Below are positions 24,542 through 41,844 of a DNA stretch of 64,000 nt, one piece after another; the stretch's first letter is position 1; every line of letters begins with the position of its first letter. The notes beneath the pieces are model-generated. The model ran no database searches. It was given only the letters and a program-made list of their open reading frames with translations, and was not told where the DNA came from. This DNA is from Gemmatimonadaceae bacterium (GTDB lineage: Bacteria; Gemmatimonadota; Gemmatimonadetes; Gemmatimonadales; Gemmatimonadaceae): contig JADZCT010000025.1 of the NCBI GenBank assembly GCA_020851455.1, forward strand, positions 1 through 64,000, read 5' to 3'. Made by a program: the position numbers and the translations under genes.

Positions 24542-24724
24542 TCAGTTCCACGATTGAAGCTCGATGATGTTGCCTTCCGGGCCTCGCGCGTAGCACCATG
24601 TGACGCGAGACCCGTCGCCAGGCTCCGCAACCGAGACCGCCCCAACTGCGGACCCGCCGGCGGCAAGCACTTCCCGCAGCGCCGCGCCAACATCCGCGTC
24701 GTTATCCCGCTGGCCGTTTGTTAC
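24542..24724 (-). pseudogene. C-terminal remnant of a VOC/glyoxalase-fold protein
   Basis: About 60 codons end in YARGPEGNIIELQSW, the hallmark last strand and metal-ligand Glu of VOC (glyoxalase/bleomycin-resistance) domains, preceded by a helix DADVGAALREVLAAGG. A complete VOC domain needs about 115-130 residues. Upstream of 24724 the frame runs into the TonB receptor gene's coding sequence, so the N-terminal half is missing. The fragment abuts the receptor stop codon. It could be a decayed gene whose 5' half was removed when the neighbouring gene was rearranged. Confidence 0.6.
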
Positions 24725-26577
24725 CGGGCTCCCTTTGCGTGCGCCGTCCAGCTCAGCCCGAGCATTGCCGCCGTTCCCGGCGCCGGCATTCCCGTGACGT
24801 CCAGCCACCGGGCGCGCCCAAGGTTGGTGCCATCGAGCGTGACACGCCATTCGCCGCCGGTCGCCCACTCCAGACGTGCGTCGGCGGTGGTGTAGCCGTC
24901 TTCGCCTGCGCGGCGCGAGTGCGCGACGTCAACCGTGGCCGTGACGCCTGCGCCGAACGAACGCATTGCCGTGATCCCTGCCGATCGCGTAACCGGCCGG
25001 AGGGCATACTTGCCGACGAATCCGCCGGGCAGCGACGTGGTGAAGCGCGTGCCCTGCAGGCGCAGGTGCCAGTCAATGCCGATCAATTCCCTGTACTCAG
25101 CGGCAAGCTCGATGCCGTGCAGTGTGGCATCCGAGATGTTGCTTGCCACCCACGGGATGTTCTGCGGGCGCATGCTCACCGGTCGGATCCAGTCTATGAG
25201 GTCATGCGAGCTCCGCACGAATGCTGTCAGTTCCGCCGAGCCGCGGCTGAACTCGCGACCGATGGCGGCGTCGCCGGTCCAGAATGTCTCGACGCCGAGC
25301 GTCGGTGTGCCCTCGTTGGCCGGATCCTTGTAGTATCGCTCGGTCCACGAAGGCGCGCGGATCCCGCGCGCGACCGCGAGCCGTGCGCCGTAGTGAGTGG
25401 CGAGCGGAAGCCGCAACGTGAGCGACGGTGAGAACGCGCTCCCTGTGACCGACGAATGATCGAGGCGTGCGGCCGTGGTGATCGTAGCGCTCCGCAGCCC
25501 GTGGGCATCCTCGACGAACACCGCAATCCGGTTCTCGGAGCGCTTGCCCAGAGTAGCCGATGCGAGGCTCATCTGGGCTGCTTCGCCGCCCAGTGTCACT
25601 GCGCCGCCGCCAACGAGCTGGCGTACGGACAACTCTTCGAGGAGCGAGGCGTTGGTGTGCAGGTTGCGGTATGCGGCTGGATTCTCGCGCCTGAGGATGA
25701 AGTCGTCGTCGTGCCTGCGCCAGCTTGCGGCGAAGCGCAGTTCGCGCCGGTCGTCGAGGGCGCGCGCGGCGCGCAGTGCGAGGGTGCCAGTGTTGGTTGT
25801 CTCGTATGAGTTGTACGGGCCATAGAACGCGTTCGCGCCGAAGGCGCGCCGCGCCCATCCGCCGTCCAGTCCAAGCTGCGTGGCGCCGATCCGGCGCTCG
25901 CCGCCGAGTTGCGCCTGGCGGATTTCGTAGTCCGTGCCTGGTCGCGAGCCGTCGGACGTGGAATACTCGGCGGCTGCGCGCACGGCGCTGCCCGCGGCGC
26001 CCATACCTCCCGCCGCCGCGATGCGCGCGGTGCCGAAGCTGCCGCCTTCGGCGTGAAGCGTCCTCGATGTTCCGTGCTTCCTGACGATGTTGATTACACC
26101 GCCCGCAGCGTCCGGCCCGTAGAGCGCAGACGCGCCGCCGCGGAGAACTTCGATCCGCTCGATCTCGTCGAGAGGGACCGGGAGGTCAAGCGCGAAGTGC
26201 GCGGTCTGGGCGTCGTTGACGCGCACTCCGTCGAGGAGCACCAGCACCTGCTGGTAAGACCCTCCTCGCACCGATACATCGGCCGAAGCCGGCGAGCGCG
26301 CCTGCACGTCCACGCCGAGTGCGCGGGCGAGCACCTGCGGCAGCGCCGAGCCCGGGAGCCGATCCAGCGCGGTGCGATCGAGGACTTCGAGCGTGAAGCC
26401 GCTGCGGTCGGTGACGCGCGTGCTGACGCGCACCGTATCGAGGCGACGGCGCGCTGCGGCCGCGCTGTCATCGGTTCGGTGCTGAGGTGTGGTGCCGCCG
26501 GATCGCTGTGCCGCCGCTGCCTCTGAGCCGACGGCCATGACCAGCGCGGCGGCAGCAAGTATCCCGGGAAAGTGCAT
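24721..26577 (-). CDS. BtuB-like TonB-dependent outer-membrane receptor
   Basis: The 618-residue receptor has a signal peptide (about 1-23) and a plug domain at about 45-165 with SVRGGSYQQVLVLLDGVRVND and IERIEVLRGGASALYGPDAAGGVINI blocks, followed by a 22-strand type barrel. Length and layout match BtuB (614 residues). The B12-dependent reductase next door makes a cobamide a reasonable substrate, but this is inference. The last barrel strand MLGLSWT is followed by seven extra residues (AHAKGAR) rather than ending in an aromatic residue. The gene lies 87 bp downstream of the DUF5916 gene on the same strand; that gap is too short for a riboswitch. Confidence 0.88.
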   Translation of the reverse strand: MHFPGILAAAALVMAVGSEAAAAQRSGGTTPQHRTDDSAAAARRRLDTVRVSTRVTDRSGFTLEVLDRTALDRLPGSALPQVLARALGVDVQARSPASADVSVRGGSYQQVLVLLDGVRVNDAQTAHFALDLPVPLDEIERIEVLRGGASALYGPDAAGGVINIVRKHGTSRTLHAEGGSFGTARIAAAGGMGAAGSAVRAAAEYSTSDGSRPGTDYEIRQAQLGGERRIGATQLGLDGGWARRAFGANAFYGPYNSYETTNTGTLALRAARALDDRRELRFAASWRRHDDDFILRRENPAAYRNLHTNASLLEELSVRQLVGGGAVTLGGEAAQMSLASATLGKRSENRIAVFVEDAHGLRSATITTAARLDHSSVTGSAFSPSLTLRLPLATHYGARLAVARGIRAPSWTERYYKDPANEGTPTLGVETFWTGDAAIGREFSRGSAELTAFVRSSHDLIDWIRPVSMRPQNIPWVASNISDATLHGIELAAEYRELIGIDWHLRLQGTRFTTSLPGGFVGKYALRPVTRSAGITAMRSFGAGVTATVDVAHSRRAGEDGYTTADARLEWATGGEWRVTLDGTNLGRARWLDVTGMPAPGTAAMLGLSWTAHAKGAR

Positions 26578-26664
26578 CCACGGATGTTATCGGAATGGCG
26601 CAACCGATGCACCCCGCTGGCCGTGTGCCGCGAGTACCCCCGCGGCGTACGGCCTCGTGCCCGC

Positions 26665-29238
26665 TCAGCGGTTGAACCAGTACGACACCTTCATCGCGAA
26701 CGTATTCACCGGGTGGAGGCGGAAAAGATCGTTGACATCGCCGCCGTACCCGGCGGCGCCTTCTTCGCCTGTCATCCCCTGGCGGCCCTCATTCCAGACA
26801 AGGAACAACGTCGAGCCAGGCATGTATTCCCAGCGGAACACGAGGTTGGACGCGAACTGCTTGTAGTTGAACCCGCCGGGGTCGCTTGCGTCCGCGGAAC
26901 CAGTGTACGGCGCGTACCGGTCGTTGTAGTGCGCCGCGCGCGGATCAGCCGAAAGTTGCCGAAGGTTGCTGTACGTGCCCTTCGAGACGAATGGCTGCAC
27001 GTAGGCCTGCAGCGACACGTTCGGCGTGAAGGTGTAGTTGGCGCGCAGCGTTGCCGCGGCGGTGACCTGGTCGAGGTGGGCATGCAGCCAGTGCAGGCCG
27101 GTTCCGTCGCTGACGTTGCCGTACCACTGGTTGTCGGCGATGGTGCGTGTCCACTGTAACCCGGCTGTAGCGCTGAACCTTCCGGCCGCCTTGAAGGCCG
27201 CGCTGGGGATGACACTCAACCGCGAGTTCCGCCCGCCGGCTCCGACGTAGTAGGTGAGGTTGATTCCCGGCACGACGGCGCGCCGGTCATCGCCGTAGAC
27301 GTTCAGGTATGGCGCAACGTACGGGTCATTCCGGACGGCTGGCCCCCCGTGCGCCAGGCGGTCGTCATACGTGGCGCCGAGCTGGCCGAACGTTGAGCCG
27401 CCTAGCAGCGACCAGTTGTTGCGGGTGGTCACCCGCAGATTCGTGTTGAACGCGGCGTCCAGCGCGAGCCCCGTGGTGGTCCAGTGCTGTGTCCAGTTGT
27501 TGTTCCACTGGAGATTGTTCCAGTACTTGCGCTGACGCAGGTCGAACAGCCCGATCCATGTGTTCCACGACTGCTGGTCGGCGCGACGGAGGTAGCCGAG
27601 GTCGTTGATCTCGAATCCCGCCGAGCGCCGCTGGTATGAGGTCTGGTACTGAAACCGTTGCCCGGCGACCTTGCCAAAGCGCAGTTCCTCTGCGTCGCCC
27701 GTGAGACTGGTAGCCTCAGGGTCGAGCCGCAACCCGGAACCGGGCATGCCGAAATAGTGCACGGGGTTCGATTGCAGAGCGGCGATTGCGGCACTGGTGC
27801 CGCGGACGTCGCTGCCATCCAGGGAGCCGGAGACTTCGTATGTGTCGTGCAGAAAGCGATGGCGGAAGTCCAGCCCGGCGGTGTATGCCCCGGATGCGAG
27901 GTACGGCGCGGACCACTGGTCGTTGCTCCGGTTCACTGCCGTCGCAATGGCGCCGATGGTGCTCCGGCCGCCGCGGAAGTCCGCGGTTGCGCGCGCCACT
28001 GTGTAGTTGGCCGATGGCTCGAATGTCTTGCCGAGAGGACCCTCGGCGCGTTGCGTGACCGCGTCGAGCACGCTGAGCGTGATGCCGTTCGAGAAGCGGC
28101 CCTGAAGCTTCGCAGCGCCCAGTATTGTGGTTGGGACCTGCGGGACCGTGTCGCCGTAGGCCGAGGCGAGGCGCGGCGCCCGCCCGATCCGGCGGCTGTA
28201 GTAGAGTCCTTCGTTGCTGCAAGTGACTACGTTGCAGTTGACGTCGAACCTGAGCAGCCCACGCCCCGCGACGAAAAATGGGCGCTGTTCCGGGAAGAAC
28301 GACTCGTATGTAGTGAGGTTGAGCACAGCCGGGTCGGCTTCGACCTCGCCGAAGTCGGGGTTGATGGTGGCCGCGAGCGTAAGGTTGGACGTCATTCGAT
28401 ACTTGACGTCACCGCCCGCGGTCGCGCTCGACCGGGTTTCGTACCGGCTGCCGGCGATCCGCGCGCCGCTCTTCGTGACCATGTAGGGGACCGCTTCGAG
28501 AGGGCGTGGAGCAGCGAGCCCGTCGAGCCCGGTGAGCGTTCCGAACTGCGATACCATGCCTGGCTTGGACTGGTCGAACATCGGCCAGCTGATTCGCTCG
28601 TTGTAGCGGTAAAGCTCGCGGTCTATCGCGAGCCCGAACGTATTGCTCGCGGCCGCGGCGTAGCGGAGCTGCGAGAGGGGAATGCGAAACTCGGCCGTCC
28701 ACCCGGCCGAGTCCACGGACGTGGCCACGTCCCAGATGCCGTCCCACGCGGAGTCTTCGCTGTTGTCGTTGTAAACGGCCTGGTCGGCCTTCACGCCAGC
28801 CGCGTTCACGCCGAACTCATATCCCGTTCGGCGGTCGTGCTGCGAGTCAATGAGTATCCACACCATGTCGGAGGGAGTGGACGTGTCGCGCCGCTCCAGC
28901 AGCCGGATGACCTTGCCCGGCTCAGGGTCGCAGGCGCGGACGAATACGTAGAGGTTCGCGGCATCGTATGCGACCTTGGCGTACGTCGGGAACCGGGGCT
29001 CCTGTCGTGGCTTCGGCGCCCACTCCCGGAACTGAGTGATCGGCGGGACGGTGCTCCAGACGGAGTCGTCGTCGCGTCCGTCAATGGCGGGCGGGGAAGA
29101 GATCCGCGTTGCGACCGCTGTGTTCGCGGTGGGCAACGGGGTAGCGTGCGCGCCGCCTCCATTGGCCGACAGCGGGCCCGATTGCGGCTGGCATGGCGCA
29201 GTGAGCGCTGTCACGAGTGCTGCTGCTGTGATTGACAA
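26665..29238 (-). CDS. CBM9-like / DUF5916 outer-membrane protein
   Basis: The 857-residue protein has a short signal peptide and a family 9-type carbohydrate-binding fold at about 45-235 (starting ISSPPAIDGRDDDSVW, a typical opening). DUF5916 follows, with the diagnostic INPDFGEVEADPAVLNLTTYE-type stretch near 310 and FFPEQRPFF, and then a long barrel-like region to a terminal SYWFNR. The start is TTG with GGGAGG just upstream. DUF5916 proteins are common in Bacteroidetes and Gemmatimonadota and are thought to be outer-membrane proteins of unknown function. Co-orientation with the TonB receptor suggests joint expression. Confidence 0.88.
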   Translation of the reverse strand: MSITAAALVTALTAPCQPQSGPLSANGGGAHATPLPTANTAVATRISSPPAIDGRDDDSVWSTVPPITQFREWAPKPRQEPRFPTYAKVAYDAANLYVFVRACDPEPGKVIRLLERRDTSTPSDMVWILIDSQHDRRTGYEFGVNAAGVKADQAVYNDNSEDSAWDGIWDVATSVDSAGWTAEFRIPLSQLRYAAAASNTFGLAIDRELYRYNERISWPMFDQSKPGMVSQFGTLTGLDGLAAPRPLEAVPYMVTKSGARIAGSRYETRSSATAGGDVKYRMTSNLTLAATINPDFGEVEADPAVLNLTTYESFFPEQRPFFVAGRGLLRFDVNCNVVTCSNEGLYYSRRIGRAPRLASAYGDTVPQVPTTILGAAKLQGRFSNGITLSVLDAVTQRAEGPLGKTFEPSANYTVARATADFRGGRSTIGAIATAVNRSNDQWSAPYLASGAYTAGLDFRHRFLHDTYEVSGSLDGSDVRGTSAAIAALQSNPVHYFGMPGSGLRLDPEATSLTGDAEELRFGKVAGQRFQYQTSYQRRSAGFEINDLGYLRRADQQSWNTWIGLFDLRQRKYWNNLQWNNNWTQHWTTTGLALDAAFNTNLRVTTRNNWSLLGGSTFGQLGATYDDRLAHGGPAVRNDPYVAPYLNVYGDDRRAVVPGINLTYYVGAGGRNSRLSVIPSAAFKAAGRFSATAGLQWTRTIADNQWYGNVSDGTGLHWLHAHLDQVTAAATLRANYTFTPNVSLQAYVQPFVSKGTYSNLRQLSADPRAAHYNDRYAPYTGSADASDPGGFNYKQFASNLVFRWEYMPGSTLFLVWNEGRQGMTGEEGAAGYGGDVNDLFRLHPVNTFAMKVSYWFNR

Positions 29239-29460
29239 CTGTCCTCCCTTGAAGCTGAGGGGTCGCGTGAAGCCCGGGTTGTGCGCTATCCGTCGTTAGA
29301 CAGTGACAAGGGCGTCGGCGGCGGCCCACAGACTGGGACGCCCCGCGGTCACGCAGCGCCCGCGCGAGGATGCGCTGCAGTTGCAGATCCGTACGGGAGC
29401 GGCGGGCCGCCGGTTTCAGCGCGGTCGGCACGAGCGGAGCATCGCGCCACGTGCGATCGC

Positions 29461-29467
29461 GTAAATT
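29461..29467 (+). promoter_or_regulatory. Candidate -10 element (GTAAATT)
   Basis: GTAAATT differs by one base from the recurrent GTAACTT motif and lies in the 268-bp divergent gap, 40 bases before the GTG at 29507. The rest of the gap shows nothing else recognisable. Confidence 0.4.
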
Positions 29468-29506
29468 TGCGGATCCTTTGTGGTCGTCCCCGTCCAGGAG
29501 GCGTTC

Positions 29507-30352
29507 GTGCAATACCAACTGCCGATCGGACCCGCCGCCCCTCCCGGGGGCGCCGAGTTGCCTGAGCTTGCCGGAGCGCCGTCGCGCGATGCCGGACGGA
29601 TCGAACGCGCCGGGGCACCGCCGCGCGATGCCGGCCCGCGGCTCGTGCTCTCGCGCTCGGCGCTGGAACGCTTCATCCGATGCGCGCGCTGCTTCTGGCT
29701 CGAGAAGCGGCGCGACGTGCGTCCTCCGGCGATGGTTCCGATGACGCTTGCCGTGGCGACCGACGCCCTCCTCAAGAACGAGTTCGACCAGGTGCGTGCG
29801 AGCGGCGCGCGCCACCCGCTGTGGGAACGCGAACATCTGCGCGTAGCCGCGTTCGCGCACCCGAACCTGGACGACTGGCGGAACAACCGACGTGGAATCC
29901 GCGCGCTTCACGCCGCGAGCGATACGGAGGTGTACGGCTCGGTGGACGACCTCTGGCGCAACCTCGACGACGACAGTCTCCACATAGTTGACTACAAGTC
30001 AACGTCAAAGCAGGGCGAACCCAGCCTCAACGGCGGCTGGGGCGAGCAGTACAAGCGGCAGATCGAGATCTACCAGTGGCTGTTCGAGCAGAACGGGTTC
30101 CCGGTGAACCACGCGGCGTATTTTCTATACGTGAACGCCAGCAAGTCCGGAACGTTCTTCGATCCTTCGCTCACGGGTAGAATGTCGTTCGTGGCGACGC
30201 TGCACGTGCATGCGGGAAGCACGGGCTGGGTGGCCGACGCCATTGCAGCCGCGGCGGCCTGCGCGCGCGGCGACGACCTGCCGGCGAGCGGCGCGGACTG
30301 CGACAACTGCCGGTACTACGAACAGCGCGAGGGCGCGCTGCGCCAGGCGTGA
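29507..30352 (+). CDS. PD-(D/E)XK nuclease-family protein with four cysteines
   Basis: The GTG at 29507 is preceded by a perfect AGGAGG five bases away. The 281-residue protein has a short N-terminal internal repeat (GAPSRDAG, GAPPRDAG) and then LSRSALERFIRCARCFWLEKR, with C59-x-x-C62. The nuclease core shows Asp147/148 in GSVDDLW and Asp162-Tyr-Lys164, the D...D-x-K signature. C-D-N-C near 268-271 pairs with the N-terminal cysteines, as in Cas4/AddB-like nucleases that hold an Fe-S or zinc centre. I know similar stand-alone proteins from other phyla, of unknown role. It is not next to CRISPR or RecBCD genes. Its stop overlaps the potassium channel start (GTGA). Confidence 0.75.
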   Translation: MQYQLPIGPAAPPGGAELPELAGAPSRDAGRIERAGAPPRDAGPRLVLSRSALERFIRCARCFWLEKRRDVRPPAMVPMTLAVATDALLKNEFDQVRASGARHPLWEREHLRVAAFAHPNLDDWRNNRRGIRALHAASDTEVYGSVDDLWRNLDDDSLHIVDYKSTSKQGEPSLNGGWGEQYKRQIEIYQWLFEQNGFPVNHAAYFLYVNASKSGTFFDPSLTGRMSFVATLHVHAGSTGWVADAIAAAAACARGDDLPASGADCDNCRYYEQREGALRQA

Positions 30353-31557
30353 CCACGCGAAGCGACGTTCCGGGTCTGGTCGGGCGCATGCGGAGCCGGC
30401 GCTGGTTCCCGCAGGTTCCGCTCGCGGCTCTGTTGTGCGCCGGTGGCGTATGGCTCCTGCAGGTGGAGTTCGGGCGCCAGTGGCCGGAGATCGTGGAGCA
30501 GCTCGTGCATGGCACCCGCACGCTCTCTCCGGGGCTCCTGCCACCGCTCGTAGCAGGCGCGGGCATGGTGATAGTGGCATTCGGGCTGCTGCTCAGGTCG
30601 CGCATGGCCTGGGCGATGGCGATCCTGCTGTCGGCGATAGCCGCCGCAAGCATGCCGTTCGGCGAGCACCGCCACGCGTACCTGCTGCTCGCGTACTTCG
30701 TGGTGATGCTCGCGCTGCTCGCGTCGGAGTGGCGGGCATTCGACCGCAGCAGCATAGCGGCCGGCACCGTGTTTGCGCTTGCCTCGATGACGATGCTCGG
30801 GCTGTACGCAACGCTCGGGGCGTTCTATCTTGGCGCGGACTTCGACCCGCCGATTGGCAGTCTGACCACGGCGCTCTACTACGCCGTCGTCACCATGAGC
30901 ACCGTGGGCTATGGCGACATCACCCCGCAGACGTCGGGCGCCAGGATGTTCACCGTGTCGCTCATCCTTCTCGGCGTGGCGGTGTTCGCTACGTCGCTGA
31001 CGGCGGTGATCGGGCCGGTGATTACCCGCAGCGTGCAGCACTTCGCAAACCGCAGGGGCATACGCATGAAACGCGAGAACCACTTCATCGTCATCGGTAA
31101 CACGCCGCTGGCCGTCAACACGTGGCGCGAACTTGTCCGTCGTGGGCATCCGGTGACGCGCCTCCTGCAGCACGAACCCGAAACGGGCCTGCCGGCGCAC
31201 GTGGACGCCGTCGTTGGCGACCCGGGAGATGGTGACGTGCTGCGCAGCGCCGGCGCCGACAAGGCCCGGGCTGTGCTCGCGATGCTCGACGACGACTCCG
31301 AGAATGCATTCGTGGTGCTCGCCGTGCGCGAACTCGCCGGAAAGGCCCGCACGGTGGCGGCGGTTAACGACGCGCATCACCTCAGGCGGGTGAAGCTGGT
31401 TCAGCCGGATATCGTCATTGCGCCGCAGATCCTGGGCGGCGAGCTCACGGCGATGCTGCTTAGCGGCGAGAAAGTGACGGCCGATTTCGTGATGAACAGG
31501 GTGTTCGAGCAAGGTGGCCACGGCGGCGTCGCGGCGCCGGGTGCTGCTTCAACCTGA
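30349..31557 (+). CDS. kch: Kch-type voltage-gated potassium channel with RCK domain
   Basis: The 402-residue inner-membrane protein has six predicted helices. The pore selectivity filter TVGYGD is at 185-190. A cytoplasmic RCK/TrkA-N domain runs from about 245 to 370, whose first loop reads VIGNTPLAVNTW instead of GxGxxG, just as in E. coli Kch (VCGHSILAINT). This suggests no ordinary NAD binding. It would conduct K+ in response to voltage or ligands. The GTG start overlaps the nuclease stop by four bases, so the two proteins are made from one message, an unusual pairing. Confidence 0.9.
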   Translation: MTTRSDVPGLVGRMRSRRWFPQVPLAALLCAGGVWLLQVEFGRQWPEIVEQLVHGTRTLSPGLLPPLVAGAGMVIVAFGLLLRSRMAWAMAILLSAIAAASMPFGEHRHAYLLLAYFVVMLALLASEWRAFDRSSIAAGTVFALASMTMLGLYATLGAFYLGADFDPPIGSLTTALYYAVVTMSTVGYGDITPQTSGARMFTVSLILLGVAVFATSLTAVIGPVITRSVQHFANRRGIRMKRENHFIVIGNTPLAVNTWRELVRRGHPVTRLLQHEPETGLPAHVDAVVGDPGDGDVLRSAGADKARAVLAMLDDDSENAFVVLAVRELAGKARTVAAVNDAHHLRRVKLVQPDIVIAPQILGGELTAMLLSGEKVTADFVMNRVFEQGGHGGVAAPGAAST

Positions 31558-31567
31558 GGGAGGAGTC

Positions 31568-34500
31568 ATGCTGCGTCGTTGCATTGCGATCGTCACTTGC
31601 GCCGCGTCGGTCGCCGGGGCGCAATCGCCCGCCCAGGGCGCGCTCGGCTTCTACCGCTTCCCCACCATCAGCGGCCAGACGATCGTCTTCGCCGCCGAGG
31701 GCGACCTCTGGTCGGTGCCCGTCACGGGCGGGCTCGCGCGCAGGATCACCACGCATCCGGCGGAAGAGACGGACCCCGTCATCTCGCGTGACGGCAAGAC
31801 CCTCGCGTTCACCGCGCGCTACGAAGGTCCTGCGGCGCTCTACACAATGCCGATCACCGGCGGCTTGCCAACGCGCTGGACGTACGACGGCGACGCGGCG
31901 ACCGCCACCTCGTGGACGCCGGACGGGAAGCTCGTTTACAAGACGCTTCAGTACACGACGATCCCCAAGTACGGGATGGTTCAACTGGACCTCGCCAGCG
32001 GCAATCGCGTGCTCGTCCCGCTTGCCGGCGCCACGGAGGGCTCGTACGACGCCAGCGGCCGGACGATCTACTTCTCGCGCCCGGGCTTCCACAACAACGT
32101 TACCAAGCGCTACACCGGCGGCACCGCGCGGCAGGTCTGGAAGTACACCACCGGAGCTGCGGAGGCGGTCCAGCTCACGGGCAAGGAGTACAATGGCGAG
32201 AGCCACTCGCCCATGTGGTACAACGGCCGCGTGTACTTCGTGAGCGACCGGGACGGCCAGATGAACATCTGGTCAATGAAGGAGGACGGCAGCGACAAGA
32301 TCCAGGTGACGAAACACGTCGGCTGGGACGTGAGGGCGCCCAAGATGTCGCCCGACGGAAAGATCGTGTACCAGTGGCAGGCCGATCTCTGGGTGCTCGA
32401 CGCGGCCACGGGACAGACGAAGATCGTCCCGATCGCCCTCTCGAGCGACCTCGACCAGATGCGCGACCGCTGGGTGGCGGATCCGATGCGGTACCTCTCG
32501 TCGGCTCATATATCGCCTGACGGCGACCGCGTGGCGCTCACGTCGCGCGGGCGCGTGTTCGTCGCGCCGGTGAAGCAGGGGCGGTTCGTGCGGGCATCAA
32601 CCAAGGACAGCGCGCGGTTTCGCGAGGCAACGTTCACACCCGACGGCAAGTCGCTGCTCGCGCTGAGCGATGAGACGGGCGAGTTCGAGTGGGTGCGCAT
32701 CCCCGCGAACGGAGTGGGGCCCGACGAAGCCCTCACGAAGGGCGGCGACATCCTCCGCTTCCAGGGCTTCCCCTCGCCCGATGGCAAGTGGCTCGCATGG
32801 ACGGATAACAACCGCGACCTCTGGGTGATGAACGTCGCGTCGAAGGAGACGAGACGCGTCTCGGAGAACCGGCAGGGAGTGGGCGCCGCCGCGTGGTCGC
32901 CCGACAGTCGCTGGCTCGCGTTCGAGATGACCGCGTTGAACTCGTTCTCGCAGGTGAAGATCTACGACGTGCAGGCGAACCGCACCACCGCGCTCACCAG
33001 CGACCGCACCAACAGCGTGGCGCCAGCGTGGGATCCGAAGGGCGAGTTCATCTACTTCCTCTCGGACCGGAATCTGAAGACGCTCGTTGGCGCGCCGTGG
33101 GGGAACCGGCGTCCGGAGCCGTACTTCGACAAGGAGGTCGAGATCTACCAGGTCGCGCTCAGGTCGGGGCTGCGCTCTCCTTTCCAGCAGGATGACGAAC
33201 TGACGCCACGCGCGGGTGCAGCGCCGAAGCCCGACACGGCTGCGCGAGGGGTGCAGATTGACCTCCTTGGCCTCGCGAACAGGATCCGCCGCGTACCCGT
33301 GCCGAGCGGCAACTACGACTGGCTGGCTGCAAACGGCGATGCGCTCTTCTACAGGTCGCGCGGTTCCGGCGCCGACGCGAAGGCCGACCTCGTCGCCCTC
33401 AAGATCGGCAACGAGAAGCCGGAGCCCGTCGTCGTGGTTGACGCAATCGGTTCGGCGGAACTCTCGGCCAACGGCAAGAAGGTGCTCGTGCGAAAGGACA
33501 ATGCGCTTTACGTTGTTGACGCGAAGCCCGTGAAGGTCGGCAATCTCGCCGACAGCCGCGTGGACCTCACGAGCTGGAAGTTCAGCATCAATACGCGCGA
33601 CGATTTCCGCCAGATCTTCGTGGACGCGTGGCGCATGGAGCGCGACTGGTTCTACTACCCGAAGATGCACGGCGTGGACTACAAGGCCACCCTCGCGAAG
33701 TACGGCGCGCTGCTGCCGCGCATCACCACACGTGACGAACTGAGCGACCTCATCGGCTGGGTGGTAGGCGAACTCTCGGCGCTGCACACGTCCGTTGGCG
33801 GCGGCGACCTGCGGCGAGGCGAGGACAACGTTGCCGTTGCATCGCTTGGCGCGCGGCTCTTTCGCGACGCCGCCAAGGGCGGGTACCGGATTGATTACAT
33901 TTACCAGACCGACCCGGAGTATCCCGCGGAGCGCTCGCCGCTCGCCGACCCGGATCTGAACGTCAAGGCCGGCGACGTCATCACGGCGGTGAACGGCACG
34001 AAGACGCTGGATGCTCGCGATATTGGCGAACTGCTGGCCAACCAGGTGGGTAAGCAGGTGCTGCTCACGATCGGCAGCGGCGCGGCCGTGCGCGATATCG
34101 TCGTGCAGACCGTCGGCAACGAGCAGAACCTGCGCTACACCGACTGGGAGTACGCGCGCCGTCTCGCTACCGAGGAGAAGAGCGACGGCAAGATCGGGTA
34201 CGTGCATCTCCGCGCCATGGGCGGCGGCGACATTGACCAGTTCTACCGCCAGTTCACGCCCGTGTTCGACAAGCAGGGGCTCGTGCTCGACATGCGGCAG
34301 AACCGCGGCGGTAACATTGACTCGTGGGTGCTCGAGATGCTGTCGCGGAAGGTCTGGATGTACTGGCAGGATCGTGTCGGCAACCCGTACTGGAACATGC
34401 AGGGCGCGTTCCGCGGGCACATCGTGATGCTGGTTGACCAGGAGACGGCATCGGACGGCGAGGCGGTGGCGGAGGGGTTCCGGCGCCTCGGGCTTGGCAC

Positions 34501-34807
34501 GATCATTGGCGCCCGAACGTGGGGCGGCGAGATCTGGCTGAGCGGGGTGAATACCCTTACCGACGCCGGGGTCGCGCGCGCGCCGATGAGCGGGGTTTAC
34601 GGCGCGGAAGGCAAGTGGCTCATCGAGCAGGACGGTGTGCATCCCGACATCGTGGTCGAGAACCTTCCGCACGAGACCTTCCTCGGCAAGGATGCGCAGC
34701 TCGACGCTGCAATCGAGTTCCTGAAGAGGAAGATCGCGGAGGACCCGAGGCCGGTTCCGCAGCCGCCTCCGCATCCGGTCAAGCGGCCGCCGGACGGGCC
34801 CGAGTAG
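31568..34807 (+). CDS. Tricorn-like protease (propeller-PDZ-S41)
   Basis: The ATG at 31568 has GGGAGGAG just upstream and starts a signal peptide ending AGAQ; the product is about 1079 residues. Tricorn architecture is present: two propellers made of PD40 repeats (about 30-560), a core helix region with HTSVGGGD near 740, a PDZ domain near 800-870 (KAGDVITAVNG), and the S41 serine-protease core. The serine is Ser962 in QETASDGE. The C-terminal GKWLIEQDGVHPDI motif carries the expected Glu. The signal peptide indicates periplasmic peptide degradation, unlike archaeal cytoplasmic tricorn. Other peptidases in the window (M28) could finish its products. Confidence 0.93.
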   Translation: MLRRCIAIVTCAASVAGAQSPAQGALGFYRFPTISGQTIVFAAEGDLWSVPVTGGLARRITTHPAEETDPVISRDGKTLAFTARYEGPAALYTMPITGGLPTRWTYDGDAATATSWTPDGKLVYKTLQYTTIPKYGMVQLDLASGNRVLVPLAGATEGSYDASGRTIYFSRPGFHNNVTKRYTGGTARQVWKYTTGAAEAVQLTGKEYNGESHSPMWYNGRVYFVSDRDGQMNIWSMKEDGSDKIQVTKHVGWDVRAPKMSPDGKIVYQWQADLWVLDAATGQTKIVPIALSSDLDQMRDRWVADPMRYLSSAHISPDGDRVALTSRGRVFVAPVKQGRFVRASTKDSARFREATFTPDGKSLLALSDETGEFEWVRIPANGVGPDEALTKGGDILRFQGFPSPDGKWLAWTDNNRDLWVMNVASKETRRVSENRQGVGAAAWSPDSRWLAFEMTALNSFSQVKIYDVQANRTTALTSDRTNSVAPAWDPKGEFIYFLSDRNLKTLVGAPWGNRRPEPYFDKEVEIYQVALRSGLRSPFQQDDELTPRAGAAPKPDTAARGVQIDLLGLANRIRRVPVPSGNYDWLAANGDALFYRSRGSGADAKADLVALKIGNEKPEPVVVVDAIGSAELSANGKKVLVRKDNALYVVDAKPVKVGNLADSRVDLTSWKFSINTRDDFRQIFVDAWRMERDWFYYPKMHGVDYKATLAKYGALLPRITTRDELSDLIGWVVGELSALHTSVGGGDLRRGEDNVAVASLGARLFRDAAKGGYRIDYIYQTDPEYPAERSPLADPDLNVKAGDVITAVNGTKTLDARDIGELLANQVGKQVLLTIGSGAAVRDIVVQTVGNEQNLRYTDWEYARRLATEEKSDGKIGYVHLRAMGGGDIDQFYRQFTPVFDKQGLVLDMRQNRGGNIDSWVLEMLSRKVWMYWQDRVGNPYWNMQGAFRGHIVMLVDQETASDGEAVAEGFRRLGLGTIIGARTWGGEIWLSGVNTLTDAGVARAPMSGVYGAEGKWLIEQDGVHPDIVVENLPHETFLGKDAQLDAAIEFLKRKIAEDPRPVPQPPPHPVKRPPDGPE

Positions 34808-34852
34808 GTCGAGCCCAACACATCGGCGCGGTCGCGCGCCTCGCCCTCGGCC

Positions 34853-37800
34853 CTAGCGACCGGCGGGGCGCATCCAGTCGCGCACGTGGTTTCGCGCGAG
34901 CGATGGCGCGCCGCTGAGCGAGATGATCCAGCGGTCCGGCAAGCCACTGCTCCGCATCACCGTGCGGCCGATGTCGAGCCGCAGGGGGGCCTGCCACGGA
35001 TTGCTCGACATCTGGCGCAGGCCGATGCCGACCATGGTGGCGTGCACGCGCCGCTCGGCGCGGCCGGCTGCTTCGGGCGTCCGCACGCGCTCCGACCAGG
35101 CTGCGAACAGCGCGCCCTCGATCGCCCAGCGCCCTTCCCGGGCGTAGAGAGCCGCGCTCCGCTCGACCCGCGCCGAGAGGGCCTGCTCGGCCAGGCGCGA
35201 GGAGGGCCGCAGCGTCCTGAGCATCGGGTCGGAGGTTGCCAGCGCGAAGACATCCGGATCCGGGTTCCACACGCGTTCGGCCGAGAACGCAGCCGTCCAG
35301 AGGCCACCGGGGGCGCGCGCCACCAGCGTGGCGTTTGCCCGCACCGACGCGTTCGACACCGTGTCGCGCGTGCGATACCCTGAACTCCACACGTCCGCCG
35401 TCAATACCGAGGCTGGCGTGGGCATCGCGGTGACGCCGGCCCATCCGTCCCAGTGCGCGATCGTGCCGCCGGTGCGCAGGTCGCGCCCCATACCCGTCAC
35501 CATCTCGCCTTCGACTCCAACGGGGAGCTCCGAGCTGCGCTGGCCGGGTACGAGCCAGTCAATCGAGCGAAACCGGGTAATGCGCCGCGAGACACCCACG
35601 AGCGGTGCGGTGAAGGAACGGTGAGCGTGGTCGCCGGCGACGGCCAGTCCCGGCTTGGTGACGTCGAGGTCGGCCTGTTCCTGCTCGATCCCGGCCGTGA
35701 CGCCCCACACGCCTGCGCCGTCCGACGCCAGGCGCCGATTCACCACGAGCGCGTTGGTGCGCCTCGTGATGTCAATGATCTTGCCCGTGGAAGGGTCGCT
35801 TGCGAGCCGGCGTTCCTGCGCGCTGGTGAGCGCGGCGCGCCACGGGTCCAGCGGCGACTGCTCGCGCGAGCGCAGGTTCCAGTACCAGCCGCGGCCTTCC
35901 GCGTACGCGCGCATGAGGGCGCTCGCCCGGACGGGCGCGCCGAGGAAGTACGGGTCGGCAACGCCAACGGCGAGCGCCTGGCGGGTGTTTGTCTCCTCGG
36001 TCGTCACCGAGAGTGAGCGGCCCGTGCCGAGCAGGTTGCGGTCCTCGAACGACGCATGGCCGATGGTGTGGCTTCCCAGCTGGATGGAGCCGCGCGTAGT
36101 CCAGGCGTCGCGGGTGCGCACGGTGAAGTCCGTCTGCGCGGCGGCGTCGCAGTGGCGTCCCTCGAGGGTGACGTCGGCGAAGAGCGACGACTTGCGCAGT
36201 CGGCGCACGGATTCCTCGATTGCCCCGGGGCTGGCGTTGTCGCCCGTGCGGAAACCGAGTTCCTGTTCGACGACGCTCGTGCGCGTGGGCACGCGGAGGC
36301 GCCGCGCGATGGAGGAGAGCCGCGCGCTCGGCAGCTCAACGCCGCCGGTCTCGATGGTCAGCCGGCCGACGCGCGTGCCGAGCCAGGATGCCGGGAAGGT
36401 TGCGCCGAGGGTATCAACCTCGCACCGGGTGAAGGCTGGCGCCTCGACTCGCTGGCGCGGTGGCACGGGCGGAGCCGGCGGAGCGCTGGCCGTCGAGCCC
36501 ATGAGGACGACCGCGGGGCGATCGGCGGGTGTCGCTCCAGGGCCGGTCGCTTCGGGAATCGCAGCCGCGAGCGTCGAGGTTGCGTTGCGCACGGGAAGGC
36601 CGCGTCCGTTGCGCGCGAGCACGTCGGCCGAACGCTCCCGCACGCGGCTCCGGGCGGCGACGCGGTGCGGTGCCCGTGTTGCGCGTGCGCCGGCTGGCTG
36701 CTCGCCGGCGGTATCTGCCTGCGCCGTTGCCAGTGCCGGCCCTGTGGCGCCCGGTGCGTCGGGCCAGGGAGTGAGCGCGGCCATCGCGATCGCCGCGGCC
36801 ATGAGACCGAATGCCGCCCGGCTGGCGAGCGGGGCCGCCGAGCGCGGCAGGCGTTCGCGCGCCCAGCGAACGAGGCGGGCGCCGTCGAGCAGGTCGTACT
36901 GCAGCCAGAGCCACACCAGGGCGTACGGAACGGCTTCCAGCCCGGCCACGCACGCCAGCATGAGGATCGCGCGGGCGGGCGTCGCGGGGGAGGCCGTGAA
37001 CCAGACCGCGAGGCCAACGGCCGCGATGATGTACGACGCGTTCTCGGACTGGTGGTTGAATATGACGACGTAAATGAGCAGCGATGCCAGGTACCGCCGG
37101 CGGTAGGCCGCGTCGGCCCACGCGGCGCGGCGCAGTACGCCGGGTGCGACGACGATGGCCGTGGCGAGGGCCTGGAGGGGCCAGTTCGGGATCGCGATGC
37201 CGGTCCACTGGCGGATCACCACCATGATGCTGCGGGCGAACGTCAGGTCGCGTCCGTCGGCGGAGAGGATCGCGATCCACGAGCGATACTGCTCGAGCAG
37301 CAGTCGCGGCGTCGTGACCAGCAGCGGCCCCGCGAGGAACGCGATTGCCACGAGGGAGACGATTGCAACCGCGCGCCATCGGCGCGAGCGCGTGAGGGCG
37401 AACGGCATGATCGCGGCCGGGAACAGCTTCATTAGTGTGCCCGCCGCGATCGCGGCGCCGGCCCGCGCCGCGCGGCCGTCCTCGATGGCGAGGAAGCTTG
37501 CCACCATGAGAGCCGCGATGAGCGCGTTGCTCGATGTGCTCTGTACCGCGCCGACCAGCGCGGGCAGGACGATGAGCAGGGCGACGGTACCGGCGCGTCC
37601 AGGCAGCAGCCGGTCCACCGCCGCGTAGAGCGAGAGCGCGTTCAGCGTCGTCCATGCCAGCAGCCCGAGGAGGAACGGCGTGTACGCGAACGGCGCGAAG
37701 AAGAGCGCGGCAGTGGGGTTGTACTTGAACCGGTCGCGGTCTTCCGTCCCTTGCTCTGCGGGGTAGCGGGCGTACAGATCGCGCCCTTCGCTCAGATGGA

Positions 37801-38002
37801 CGAACGACTGCCGGAAGATCGGGTAGGTCGCATGGCCCTGGGTAAGCACGCCGCGTTGAACCGTCGCGACGCCCGCGAGCGCGAGGAAGGTGGCGAGGAT
37901 GCAGAGCCGTATGCGCGCGTCCACCCTACGCCTCGGGTGGTGGGTGAGCTGCCCGGCCGCGTGAGCGCGGCGGATGTCGGCAGGAGGCGGCTCGGGATGC
38001 AT
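34853..38002 (-). CDS. Fusion of GT87 membrane glycosyltransferase with POTRA/Omp85-like outer-membrane domain
   Basis: One unbroken frame of 1049 codons encodes two unlike parts. Residues 25-411 match polyprenol-phosphate-mannose dependent GT87 (DUF2029) enzymes: several membrane helices, GRDLYARYP near 73, and RFKYNPTAALFFAPFAY at 91-107. A Pro/Ala/Arg-rich linker (412-525) leads to a POTRA-like module (about 545-620; LRKSSLFADVTLEG) and then Omp85-type barrel strands (EDRNLLGTGRSLSV near 653, DPYFLGAPVRAS near 683) to the end. The C-terminus (DWMRPAGR) lacks a classical aromatic end. No ATG, GTG or TTG with a proper signal peptide was found before the POTRA part, arguing against two genes. 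Either a real chimera or a sequencing merge. Confidence 0.8.
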   Translation of the reverse strand: MHPEPPPADIRRAHAAGQLTHHPRRRVDARIRLCILATFLALAGVATVQRGVLTQGHATYPIFRQSFVHLSEGRDLYARYPAEQGTEDRDRFKYNPTAALFFAPFAYTPFLLGLLAWTTLNALSLYAAVDRLLPGRAGTVALLIVLPALVGAVQSTSSNALIAALMVASFLAIEDGRAARAGAAIAAGTLMKLFPAAIMPFALTRSRRWRAVAIVSLVAIAFLAGPLLVTTPRLLLEQYRSWIAILSADGRDLTFARSIMVVIRQWTGIAIPNWPLQALATAIVVAPGVLRRAAWADAAYRRRYLASLLIYVVIFNHQSENASYIIAAVGLAVWFTASPATPARAILMLACVAGLEAVPYALVWLWLQYDLLDGARLVRWARERLPRSAAPLASRAAFGLMAAAIAMAALTPWPDAPGATGPALATAQADTAGEQPAGARATRAPHRVAARSRVRERSADVLARNGRGLPVRNATSTLAAAIPEATGPGATPADRPAVVLMGSTASAPPAPPVPPRQRVEAPAFTRCEVDTLGATFPASWLGTRVGRLTIETGGVELPSARLSSIARRLRVPTRTSVVEQELGFRTGDNASPGAIEESVRRLRKSSLFADVTLEGRHCDAAAQTDFTVRTRDAWTTRGSIQLGSHTIGHASFEDRNLLGTGRSLSVTTEETNTRQALAVGVADPYFLGAPVRASALMRAYAEGRGWYWNLRSREQSPLDPWRAALTSAQERRLASDPSTGKIIDITRRTNALVVNRRLASDGAGVWGVTAGIEQEQADLDVTKPGLAVAGDHAHRSFTAPLVGVSRRITRFRSIDWLVPGQRSSELPVGVEGEMVTGMGRDLRTGGTIAHWDGWAGVTAMPTPASVLTADVWSSGYRTRDTVSNASVRANATLVARAPGGLWTAAFSAERVWNPDPDVFALATSDPMLRTLRPSSRLAEQALSARVERSAALYAREGRWAIEGALFAAWSERVRTPEAAGRAERRVHATMVGIGLRQMSSNPWQAPLRLDIGRTVMRSSGLPDRWIISLSGAPSLARNHVRDWMRPAGR

Positions 38003-38028: not shown

Positions 38029-38057
38029 ATCATATGTGAGCCGGACTTGCGGCTCAA
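38029..38057 (-). promoter_or_regulatory. Promoter of the GT87 fusion gene: TTGAGC - 17 bp - TATGAT
   Basis: On the minus strand TTGAGC (38057-38052) and TATGAT (38034-38029) are separated by 17 bp. They match four and five of six consensus positions. The start codon at 38002 would follow a leader of about 20 bases. Confidence 0.55.
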
Positions 38058-38349
38058 TGGAGCGATGCCGGGCTCTTTGATCTGCGATGGGCCGTGGGGC
38101 ACAAGTACACGAAGGGATTCGCGGGTATCTGGCCCACTCCGTGGGTGGCGCTTTCGATGCTCCCGAGCGTTTGGCTGCCGGATGTCGGAAGTGGCCCAGC
38201 GGGGGGATCCGCATGTGCATCGGCCGGGTGTCGCTCAATGCGGCGCGGCGCGCAACCGTGCGGCGGATGCGCGCCCCTCGCATTGGGTCGCTGCCGGCGC
38301 TAGCGCTCGACGTCCGCAGTATGGACTGTCGCGTCGTTGGCCGAAAGGC

Positions 38350-38356
38350 GTAACTT
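38350..38356 (+). promoter_or_regulatory. GTAACTT promoter motif upstream of CPBP gene
   Basis: GTAACTT ends 41 bases before the ATG at 38398. It is one of five identical intergenic copies in this window. Confidence 0.45.
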
Positions 38357-38397
38357 CGCACCACCGTGCCAACGCCGACAGTGCACCCATCGCCCCG

Positions 38398-41300
38398 ATG
38401 ACGCCTCACGCGCGAGCCACGCTTGCGGTCGCCACGATCGGCGCGTGTGCCGCCGCTATCGCGGCGATCCTGTTCCCGCGCGCCTTCCCGGCAATCGCGC
38501 TCGACAACCGCCTCACGCAGGCCACGGCCCTCGCGCGCGCCGACTCGTTTTTCTCCGCGCATGCCCTCGCGCCCGATGCCACCAGGCGCGCTGTCCTCTT
38601 CGCCGCTGACGACTCCGTCGTTACCTACGTTGACATCGCCGCTGGCGGAGCCGACTCTGTCAACGCGCTCGTGAGAGGGAAAGACGCAGCGCTCTTCTCC
38701 TGGGCGGTGCGCGCCTTCGAGCCGGGCGACGCACGCGAGGCAACGGTCGAACTCGCGACGGACGGCCGCGTCATTGGCTTCCGCCGCAAGCTCGCCAATA
38801 CGGACACGCTCCCCGACATCGGCGCAGATTCGGCGTCGGCGCTTGCCTACGCCGTGCTCACGGAATGGATCGGCCAGCCGCACAGCCTCTGGCAGATCCA
38901 GACGACGAGCTACGAAACGAGGAAGGAAAGCGGCCGCGTGGACCGAACGGTCACCTTCGAGCGCACCGACCGGACGATCGGCGACGCGCCGATCCGGCTG
39001 GATGTCGTCGTGGCGGGCAACACGCCGGTCGAAGCGCGGCCGTACATCTACATCCCCGAGTCGTTCAGCCGCCGGTACGCGGAGATGCGCTCGGCGAACG
39101 ACCTCCTCGCTGCCCTCGCGACCGTCGGAATCCTTGGGTTGGCGCTCCTGGGCGTGTTGTCGCTGAGAAGATTCTCGCGTGACGGCGGGCTCCGCTGGAA
39201 GCCGGCGCTGCTGGTCGGCGGCGTCATCGGCGCCGGGATCGCGGGCGCAGGGATCAACGGGCTTGGCGCGGCGTGGTTCTCGTACGACACGGCGACGCCA
39301 GCCGCGCTCCATCAGGCAATCGCGCTCGCGGCCGCGCTGGCGGGCGGAGTGGCGATGGGCGGAGTCGTCACGCTCACCCTCGTGGCCGCAGAGGCGGCCG
39401 CGCGACATGCATTCCCGCACAAGCTCGACTGGTGGGCGCTCTGGCGCGCGCGCGGCACGCGCGAGGCAGCGGCGCAGGTGGGCGGCGGTTACGTCGTGGC
39501 CGCGATCGGGTTCGCCTATGTTGCCGCGTTCTATCTCGTCACCCGCCATACGCTCGGCTGGTGGGTGCCAAGCGAACTGCTCGACGACCCGAACCAGGTC
39601 GCCACGCCCGCGCCATGGCTCACGGGCATCGCAATGTCGCTGCAGGCCGGGGTCTGGGAGGAGGCACTCTTCCGCGCGCTGCCGCTCTCGATGCTCGCGC
39701 TCTGGACGATGAACCGTCCGAACCGCGAATGGTGGATGCGCATGGGCATCGTGGGCACGGCCCTGATTTTCGGCTTCGCGCACTCGAACTACCCGTCGTG
39801 GCCGCCGTACTCCCGCGGCTTCGAACTCCTGCTGGAGGCGTCGTTCTGGGGCGTGGTGTTCCTGAGGGCAGGGCTGCTCGTCACGGTGACCAGTCACTTC
39901 GTGTACGACCTCGTCCTCTTCTCGCTCTTCACGGCGACCGGGAGCGCGCCGGCGTACCGCATCTCGGCGGCAATTGCCCTCCTCGCCCTGCTTGCGCCGG
40001 CGCTCGTGGTTGGCTGGCGGTTGCTGCGCCAGCGGGGGTTCGCGCCGCTGCCGGCCGGAGCGCGGTTTGGCGAGTGGCGTCAGCCGCCGGGCTCGGTCCC
40101 GCCCGCAGCGCCCGAAGCGATCGAGCAGCCGAGGGCGCTCTCTGCGCAGGGCCGCAGCGTCGCGTTGGTTGCATTCGCGGCGGCGCTGGTCGCGGCCGCC
40201 GCCTTGCCCGCAGCGCGCGTTCGCGGCCCGGCATTCACGGCTACCCGCGAGCGCGCGATGACTGTTGCCGACTCCATGCTGGCTGCTTCCGGCAGCGCCG
40301 CCGCCGACAGCGCGCTCGCGGCGGTGCGCGACCCGGCGAGCGGCTGGCGACGCCTTGCAACGGCCGCGGCCGACACGCTCGCTTCATGGCCGCGACTCCT
40401 CCACGAGCACGGGATGGACTACATGGTCGCGCCGCTCGCGTTCACGTACTCGCCCCCGGCGTGGTGGACGGTGCGGTACGTGCGCACGACAGGATCGGCA
40501 TCCGACCGCGCCGACGAGTGGCGCATCCGGGTAACGCCCGACGGTCGCCCGCTCGACGCCCGCCACATCGTTGCCGACAGCGCGCCCGGCGGTTCACCGC
40601 CTGCCGATTCGCTGCGGCGCGCGGCGCGCCGTGCGCTTGCGCGCGCAGGCGTAGACACCACGCCGCTCGTCGAGTCCGACTTTCAGGAAACGGAGCGTCC
40701 GAGGCGGCGCGACGCAACCGTTACCTACGTGGACACGTCACTCCACCTGCCTGAGGGCGCCAGCGCGCGCGCGTGGGTGAGCTTCGCCGGTAGTGAGCCG
40801 CTGGTTTCGCGGCGCGGAATCGAACTGCCGGAATCGTTCCGACGCGCCGAGCGTGAACGAGGCACCCGGGTGCTCGCGTTCACGGGCCTGCTGGCAGCGC
40901 TCGCGCTGGGGGTGATCGGGGGCGGGGCGATCGTCATCGCGAAGAGGCGCAGACCACTCGTGAACGATGCGGTGTTCGACCGGCGAACAGCATTGCGCCT
41001 GCTCGGCCTGCTGGCGCTGCTGTCGTGCCTTGTGACGCTCAACAACTGGCCCGCCGCCGTCTTTGCTTACGACACGGCCGCCACGTGGAGCAGCCACCTT
41101 GCGACCTTCGCCATTGCCGTCGTCGTGGCGCCCATCGGGGTGCTCGTCATTGCTGGAGTGTGGCAGGTGATGGAAGTGCTGCGGCGCCGCGCGGGAATTG
41201 CCGCCTGGCCGACGGGCGGCCGCGACGCGGTGCGAAGCGCGACAATCGCGGGGATGGGGATCGGCGCGGTCGCAGTGCTTGGCGAGTTGGTGTCGCAGGC

Positions 41301-41844
41301 GATGCGCGCTGGTGAGGCGGGGCTCGTTCCCGTCACGGGACTATCCATGGCTGTTCCCGCCGTCGCCGCGGCGCTCGCGATGCCGGCGGCGATTGGCGCG
41401 GTTGCGGCTGCCAGTGCAGTCCCGCCGCTGCTTCTCATGGCAACCACGCGTAGCGCGCGGGTACGGTGGCTCGTCTTCCTGCTGGCCATCGTAGTTGCGG
41501 GCGCGGTGCTCGCGCCCATCGCCGACAGCGTGGCGTCGGAACTGCCGTCCGTCGGAGAGGCACTGGCTGGACTCTGCGCCGCCGTTGCCCTCGTTGCCGC
41601 GATCGTTGTCTGGGGGCGCCGGGGGCCGCTCACGTGGCTGGTTGCCGCGGCAACGTTCGCGGGGCTGAGCTTGTTTCGCGATGGCGTGGATGCGCACACG
41701 GGCCAGGAGCGGATCGCGGCCGCGTTGGGCGTGCTCGCGTGCGTAGCTTGCGCGCTGTGGCTTGCGCGACGTGCAGCGGCCCGGCAGGGGACGGTGGTTG
41801 ACGCAGGCGACGCAACCGGCGCGCCGGATCAGCCCATGAAGTAG
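38398..41844 (+). CDS. CPBP-family intramembrane metalloprotease with degenerate internal duplication
   Basis: The ATG at 38398 starts directly with a membrane helix and follows a promoter motif; 1148 residues. The CPBP (Rce1/Abi) motifs are EE421-422xxxR426 (WEEALFR), His462 (FGFAHS) and His500...Asp504 (SHFVYD), in the first half. The second half repeats the design: extracytoplasmic domain and helices with parallel landmarks (YIYIPESFSRR near 217 versus GIELPESFRRA near 807; WFSYDTAT near 293 versus VFAYDTAA near 889). No EExxxR or matching histidines occur there. The family cleaves membrane substrates such as prenylated or signal peptides. The second copy may be structural or regulatory. 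About 1.1 kb of added sequence makes it far longer than usual CPBP proteins. Confidence 0.88.
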   Translation: MTPHARATLAVATIGACAAAIAAILFPRAFPAIALDNRLTQATALARADSFFSAHALAPDATRRAVLFAADDSVVTYVDIAAGGADSVNALVRGKDAALFSWAVRAFEPGDAREATVELATDGRVIGFRRKLANTDTLPDIGADSASALAYAVLTEWIGQPHSLWQIQTTSYETRKESGRVDRTVTFERTDRTIGDAPIRLDVVVAGNTPVEARPYIYIPESFSRRYAEMRSANDLLAALATVGILGLALLGVLSLRRFSRDGGLRWKPALLVGGVIGAGIAGAGINGLGAAWFSYDTATPAALHQAIALAAALAGGVAMGGVVTLTLVAAEAAARHAFPHKLDWWALWRARGTREAAAQVGGGYVVAAIGFAYVAAFYLVTRHTLGWWVPSELLDDPNQVATPAPWLTGIAMSLQAGVWEEALFRALPLSMLALWTMNRPNREWWMRMGIVGTALIFGFAHSNYPSWPPYSRGFELLLEASFWGVVFLRAGLLVTVTSHFVYDLVLFSLFTATGSAPAYRISAAIALLALLAPALVVGWRLLRQRGFAPLPAGARFGEWRQPPGSVPPAAPEAIEQPRALSAQGRSVALVAFAAALVAAAALPAARVRGPAFTATRERAMTVADSMLAASGSAAADSALAAVRDPASGWRRLATAAADTLASWPRLLHEHGMDYMVAPLAFTYSPPAWWTVRYVRTTGSASDRADEWRIRVTPDGRPLDARHIVADSAPGGSPPADSLRRAARRALARAGVDTTPLVESDFQETERPRRRDATVTYVDTSLHLPEGASARAWVSFAGSEPLVSRRGIELPESFRRAERERGTRVLAFTGLLAALALGVIGGGAIVIAKRRRPLVNDAVFDRRTALRLLGLLALLSCLVTLNNWPAAVFAYDTAATWSSHLATFAIAVVVAPIGVLVIAGVWQVMEVLRRRAGIAAWPTGGRDAVRSATIAGMGIGAVAVLGELVSQAMRAGEAGLVPVTGLSMAVPAVAAALAMPAAIGAVAAASAVPPLLLMATTRSARVRWLVFLLAIVVAGAVLAPIADSVASELPSVGEALAGLCAAVALVAAIVVWGRRGPLTWLVAAATFAGLSLFRDGVDAHTGQERIAAALGVLACVACALWLARRAAARQGTVVDAGDATGAPDQPMK

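Follow-up and report, generated by a model that had tools for sequence, protein, structure and literature searches.

A glycosyltransferase and an outer-membrane protein in one reading frame

We analyzed a window of 64,000 nucleotides from an uncultured Gemmatimonadaceae bacterium (positions below refer to this window). On the minus strand, positions 34853-38002 form a single frame of 1049 codons that runs from an ATG to a stop codon (34853-34855) without any internal stop and encodes 1049 amino acids. From the N terminus, the predicted protein contains a GT87 glycosyltransferase (residues 24-391; 36830-37933), a segment that resembles a signal peptide (residues 396-429; 36716-36817), a linker that is rich in alanine, proline, and arginine (residues 430-524; 36431-36715), a POTRA domain (approximately residues 544-633; 36104-36373), and an Omp85-type barrel (approximately residues 634-1030; 34913-36103). 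All of these are on the minus strand. A preliminary description of this locus, which did not give the strand, had proposed that an unbroken frame joins a GT87 enzyme to POTRA and barrel features from about residue 545, and our analysis agrees with it on each of these points. Both halves are conserved across their full length in free (unfused) homologues, so these are real domains and not chance reading frames.

The Pfam family for GT87 (PF09594) matches residues 92-309 with 70.9 bits, versus a cut-off of 25, and free GT87 homologues align over residues 24-391. The nearest of these, from genome G014 (L042), is 64% identical to the fused half. There is also a profile match to PimE (PDB 9dm5; E = 1.1e-5). 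Separately, we noticed that the position of PimE's catalytic aspartate (D58, at the tip of JM1) is apparently threonine or asparagine across this group of GT87 proteins. This was judged by eye, from the T or N that precedes [FYW]PIF (T59 in the fusion, within residues 53-62 or window 37817-37846); the alignment to the PimE structure starts downstream of it. If a structural alignment agrees, then the substitution would bear on activity.

For the second half, ten free outer-membrane proteins align over residues 526-1049. The NCBIfam model for BamA (TIGR03303) matches residues 573-694 (E = 1.7e-11), and Pfam has a sub-threshold Omp85 match at residues 656-695. We used AlphaFold2 to model residues 396-1049 (mean pLDDT 67.8, pTM 0.67) and the whole protein (mean pLDDT 75.2, pTM 0.54). 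In the predictions, residues up to 384 form a helical bundle, and a helix of low confidence follows at 390-410. Disorder is predicted at 398-507 (in both models), then one POTRA from about residue 544, and a barrel to about residue 1030. The best structural match to the second half is BamA (Z = 17.2, rmsd 5.5, 365 residues; Foldseek and VIA-align), and TamA (Z = 16.2), FhaC (Z = 14.3), and CdiB are also matched. Omp85 proteins have a POTRA followed by a 16-strand barrel, and both the POTRA and the barrel fold were matched by the model.

Although the second half shares this architecture with BamA, TamA, and other Omp85 barrels, it has one POTRA instead of several, and it scores just 43.3 bits against BamA's equivalog cut-off of 297.15, so it does not qualify as BamA. 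Based on the predicted structure, we assign it to the Omp85 superfamily, with a single POTRA. The earlier label of "Omp85-like" can thus be narrowed to a BamA/TamA-like protein, and not BamA itself.

The two halves are separate genes in related bacteria

We searched for similar fusions in 149 relatives and in 159 genomes from the same class. (These sets overlap and include about 244 distinct genomes, of which 17 are other members of the same genus.) We did not find a second fusion of GT87 to Omp85 in any of them. Two matches appeared to span both halves, but we rejected both: the one in G187 is a barrel that stands free and has a signal peptide of its own, and the one in G078 is a free barrel gene within a long open frame. 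A pattern scan across 84,980 species genomes is sensitive to close relatives only, and it recovered nothing but the free GT87 gene of G014, which is recorded as uncultured Gemmatimonadetes bacterium Umea3_bin-3837.

Within the genus, ten genomes carry the barrel as a free gene. GT87 proteins from the same clade as the fused one are present in five (G012-G016), and a sixth, G017, has a fragment at a contig edge. Where a genome has both free genes, they are at unrelated places. In the genome with the fusion, the barrel and the clade's type of GT87 were found only inside the fused gene. The preliminary description had named two separate genes in all related genomes as an observation that would refute it, and this is what we see. 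Because the halves are separate in every relative that we sampled, the fusion is private to one genome.

The junction contains a candidate signal peptide

The nearest free GT87 ends with PESAAPAGELNEA, which lines up with about residue 398 in the fusion. The fusion itself goes on from a basic tail (RLVRWARERLPRSAAPLASR) through a hydrophobic core (AAFGLMAAAIAMAAL) to AxA motifs at residues 423-425 and 427-429. The hydrophobic segment (396-429) is absent from the nearest free GT87. Judging from hydropathy, charge, and the AxA rule, it resembles a signal peptide, with candidate sites for signal peptidase I after ALA425 and AQA429. The Kyte-Doolittle peak of its core (residues 396-412, 11-residue windows) is 2.43, as compared to 2.06-3.31 for the signal peptides of four free barrel relatives. 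The distance from the core to AQA429 is long, at about 17 residues. In PimE, a GT87 enzyme with a solved structure, the N and C termini are both cytoplasmic (PMC12041525). If the fused GT87 has the same topology, then residues 396-429 are placed where an internal, cleavable signal peptide would be.

The preliminary description had stated that the linker offers no start codon followed by a proper signal peptide. We concur that there is no convincing start codon, but a signal-peptide-like segment is present. Within this segment, the only in-frame starts are ATG401 and ATG407, and both would omit the basic n-region and lack an evident Shine-Dalgarno sequence. Later in-frame starts (residues 454-513) do not precede any hydrophobic core beyond a short AVVLMG at residue 497. 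None of the three frames has a better signal peptide ahead of the barrel. Given the poor starts and the lack of an alternative signal peptide, the export of the barrel seems to depend on the tail of the GT87.

The linker itself has a weaker codon-position signal than the domains do. Its GC3 drops to about 0.77 (0.76-0.82), as compared to about 0.90 in either domain. Also, given 77% GC, we estimate from composition that a stretch of 131 codons would be free of stops about half the time, so the open linker is by itself weak evidence.

Genomic location

The window has a lineage-specific block of about 13.5 kb (24721-38002), and the fused gene sits at its edge as the final gene. The block also contains genes for a TonB receptor, a DUF5916/CBM9 protein, a PD-(D/E)XK protein, a K+ channel/TrkA protein, and a Tricorn-like S41 protein. 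In two genomes from the same genus (G001 and G010), the genes on either side of the block are adjacent: the ribonucleotide reductase gene (22024-24540 in our window) is directly followed by a large CPBP/Rce1-like gene (38047-41844). The block is a possible genomic island. For the CPBP/Rce1-like gene, the mechanically chosen start is probably too early, as its homologues begin near 38416.

The free genes are elsewhere. In G014, G009, and G002, the barrel gene lies between two genes that are similar to glutamine synthetase, and in the fusion genome, those two genes adjoin without the barrel. Similarly, the free GT87 gene of G014 is flanked by an AarF-type gene on one side and by a pilin/gcvT pair on the other, and the fusion genome has the same site without the GT87. 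In midpoint-rooted trees of neighboring genes, the fusion genome branches outside of the others, so the direction of movement is uncertain.

Other GT87 genes run on into exported proteins

We compared 57 GT87 homologues with a full core, and all but two of them stop at a normal distance past the core. The other two are from G016 and G013. In G016 (L043:5939-7882), a GT87 of the fused clade reads straight on, in frame and with no intervening stop, into a secreted PepSY-like protein, which has a signal peptide of its own and a clear AGGAG-GTG start. In G013 (L047:3278-6040), a GT87 of the clade likewise continues in frame, here into a serine hydrolase. This protein, too, has its own start and signal peptide, with a weaker Shine-Dalgarno sequence than in G016. 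(Both downstream domains were named by eye.)

Including the fusion in our window, the three run-ons all fall within one well-supported clade of seven members. By simple counting, the chance that all three would lie within 7 of the 57 rows of the tree is about 0.001, but this comparison was made post hoc. G013's sister (G015) has a normal stop and is followed by different DNA, and the window's sister (G014) also has a normal stop, so the three run-ons look like independent events. A fourth member of the clade with a co-directional gene downstream (the second copy in G016, L044) keeps its stop codon. These comparisons suggest that loss of the stop codon is tolerated where the in-frame gene downstream begins with a signal peptide. 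As the three run-ons are apparently independent and lie in one clade of GT87 proteins, the idea can be tested by comparative genomics.

How might the fused gene work?

We favor the explanation that the gene encodes one precursor, which is cut by signal peptidase into a GT87 enzyme and a POTRA-barrel protein. We give this about an even chance of being correct. A rearrangement would have brought a GT87 gene, whose stop codon had been lost, into frame with a one-POTRA Omp85 gene directly downstream of it. If the whole frame is translated, and if the topology is like PimE's, then the single product would enter the membrane during translation as a GT-C enzyme, with its C-terminal tail in the cytoplasm. 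This tail would act as the n-region of the internal signal peptide at residues 396-429, which would re-engage the Sec translocon. Signal peptidase I would probably cut near residues 425-430. The glycosyltransferase would then stay in the inner membrane, while the POTRA-barrel would be released to the BAM pathway. This model starts from the intact frame, the two domains, the lack of another fusion in the genomes that we searched, a location unlike that of the relatives' genes, and the hydrophobic segment with its AxA motifs.

Alternatively, there might be two products, with the GT87 reading on through the linker and the barrel made mainly from an internal start. The fusion would then be a harmless read-on. 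The run-on partners in G016 and G013 do have their own starts and signal peptides (with a clear AGGAG in G016), an open linker is about a coin flip given its composition, and the drop in GC3 resembles non-coding DNA. We still consider two products unlikely, because no in-frame start in the fused gene would give a normal signal peptide: ATG401 and ATG407 come too late for the n-region, and the starts at 454-513 have only AVVLMG after them. A different concern is that a wrong base masks a stop codon, or that a misjoin connects two separate genes. The genome is a single, MAG-like draft (139 contigs), and the halves are at unrelated loci in all of the relatives. On the other hand, the flanks of the block follow the conserved gene order, and the linker is single-copy in this genome, so there is no repeat to drive a misassembly, and we rejected that scenario. 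We also rejected a frameshift: the stops in the other frames are at residues 529 and 548, so a single indel would end the GT87 only inside the barrel gene and would not yield a natural pair of genes. Overall, we think that an artefact is quite unlikely.

It is improbable, too, that the fusion is dead or decaying, with a barrel that is no longer exported and is being lost. In the barrel half, 28 of the 129 positions that are invariant in the ten free relatives have changed, but this is partly because the fusion genome is an outgroup to those relatives. The segment that aligns with the relatives' signal peptides (RPAVVLMGSTASA) does look like a remnant. Yet the barrel half has an intact frame of 524 codons and high GC3, its fold is predicted in full, and its branch is no longer than expected for an outgroup genome. 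Specifically, the barrel's branch length is 0.93, versus 0.39-0.5 for a neighboring enzyme from the same genome, which is about twofold; for the stems of the free relatives, it is about fourfold. Since there is no acceleration relative to neighboring genes, we rejected relaxed constraint on the barrel. Finally, the protein might remain uncut and span the envelope, from a GT-C glycosyltransferase in the inner membrane through a disordered periplasmic tether to an Omp85 barrel in the outer membrane. Such a chain would physically couple lipid-linked sugar transfer to the outer membrane. There is one frame, and a linker with over 100 residues of predicted disorder could in principle cross the periplasm. 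However, no such chain was found in any other of the roughly 244 genomes, the AxA sites come shortly after the hydrophobic segment, and the Omp85 proteins that are known cross the periplasm as free intermediates on their way to BAM. We view an uncut chain as highly improbable.

The preliminary description had left the choice between a trans-envelope polypeptide and a cleaved precursor. Nothing that we found supports the former, while the core at 396-412, the AxA motifs, the basic tail, and the predicted disorder at 398-507 favor the latter. As assembled, the frame is real and unusual, but the fusion is private to one genome, and it most probably yields two ordinary envelope proteins by way of a single precursor, and not a new machine that spans the envelope.

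Comparison with known systems

The fused GT87 resembles PimE-type polyprenyl-phosphate-mannose transferases (GT-C) in its PF09594 match, its profile match to PimE, and its predicted polytopic helices. However, PimE stops after its last transmembrane helix, while the fused frame runs about 650 residues further. The barrel half differs from its free relatives, which have their own N-terminal signal peptides. As in the run-ons of G016 and G013, a GT87 frame without its own stop is followed by a signal peptide (here, a candidate) and then by an exported domain, but those partners have their own start codons and are unrelated.

A precedent for a cleaved precursor is fbcH from Bradyrhizobium. It encodes a precursor of cytochromes b and c1, in which a polytopic inner-membrane protein is joined to an exported protein by an internal signal peptide, and the precursor is cut into two working proteins. 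If our precursor is made and cut, then the tail of a polytopic inner-membrane enzyme would lead, via an internal signal peptide, to the export of an outer-membrane barrel. This would suggest how the loss of a stop codon can be tolerated if an exported protein is encoded downstream. The two cases also differ: fbcH encodes parts of a conserved respiratory complex whose halves cooperate, while our fusion has an outer-membrane barrel as the partner and is private to one genome.
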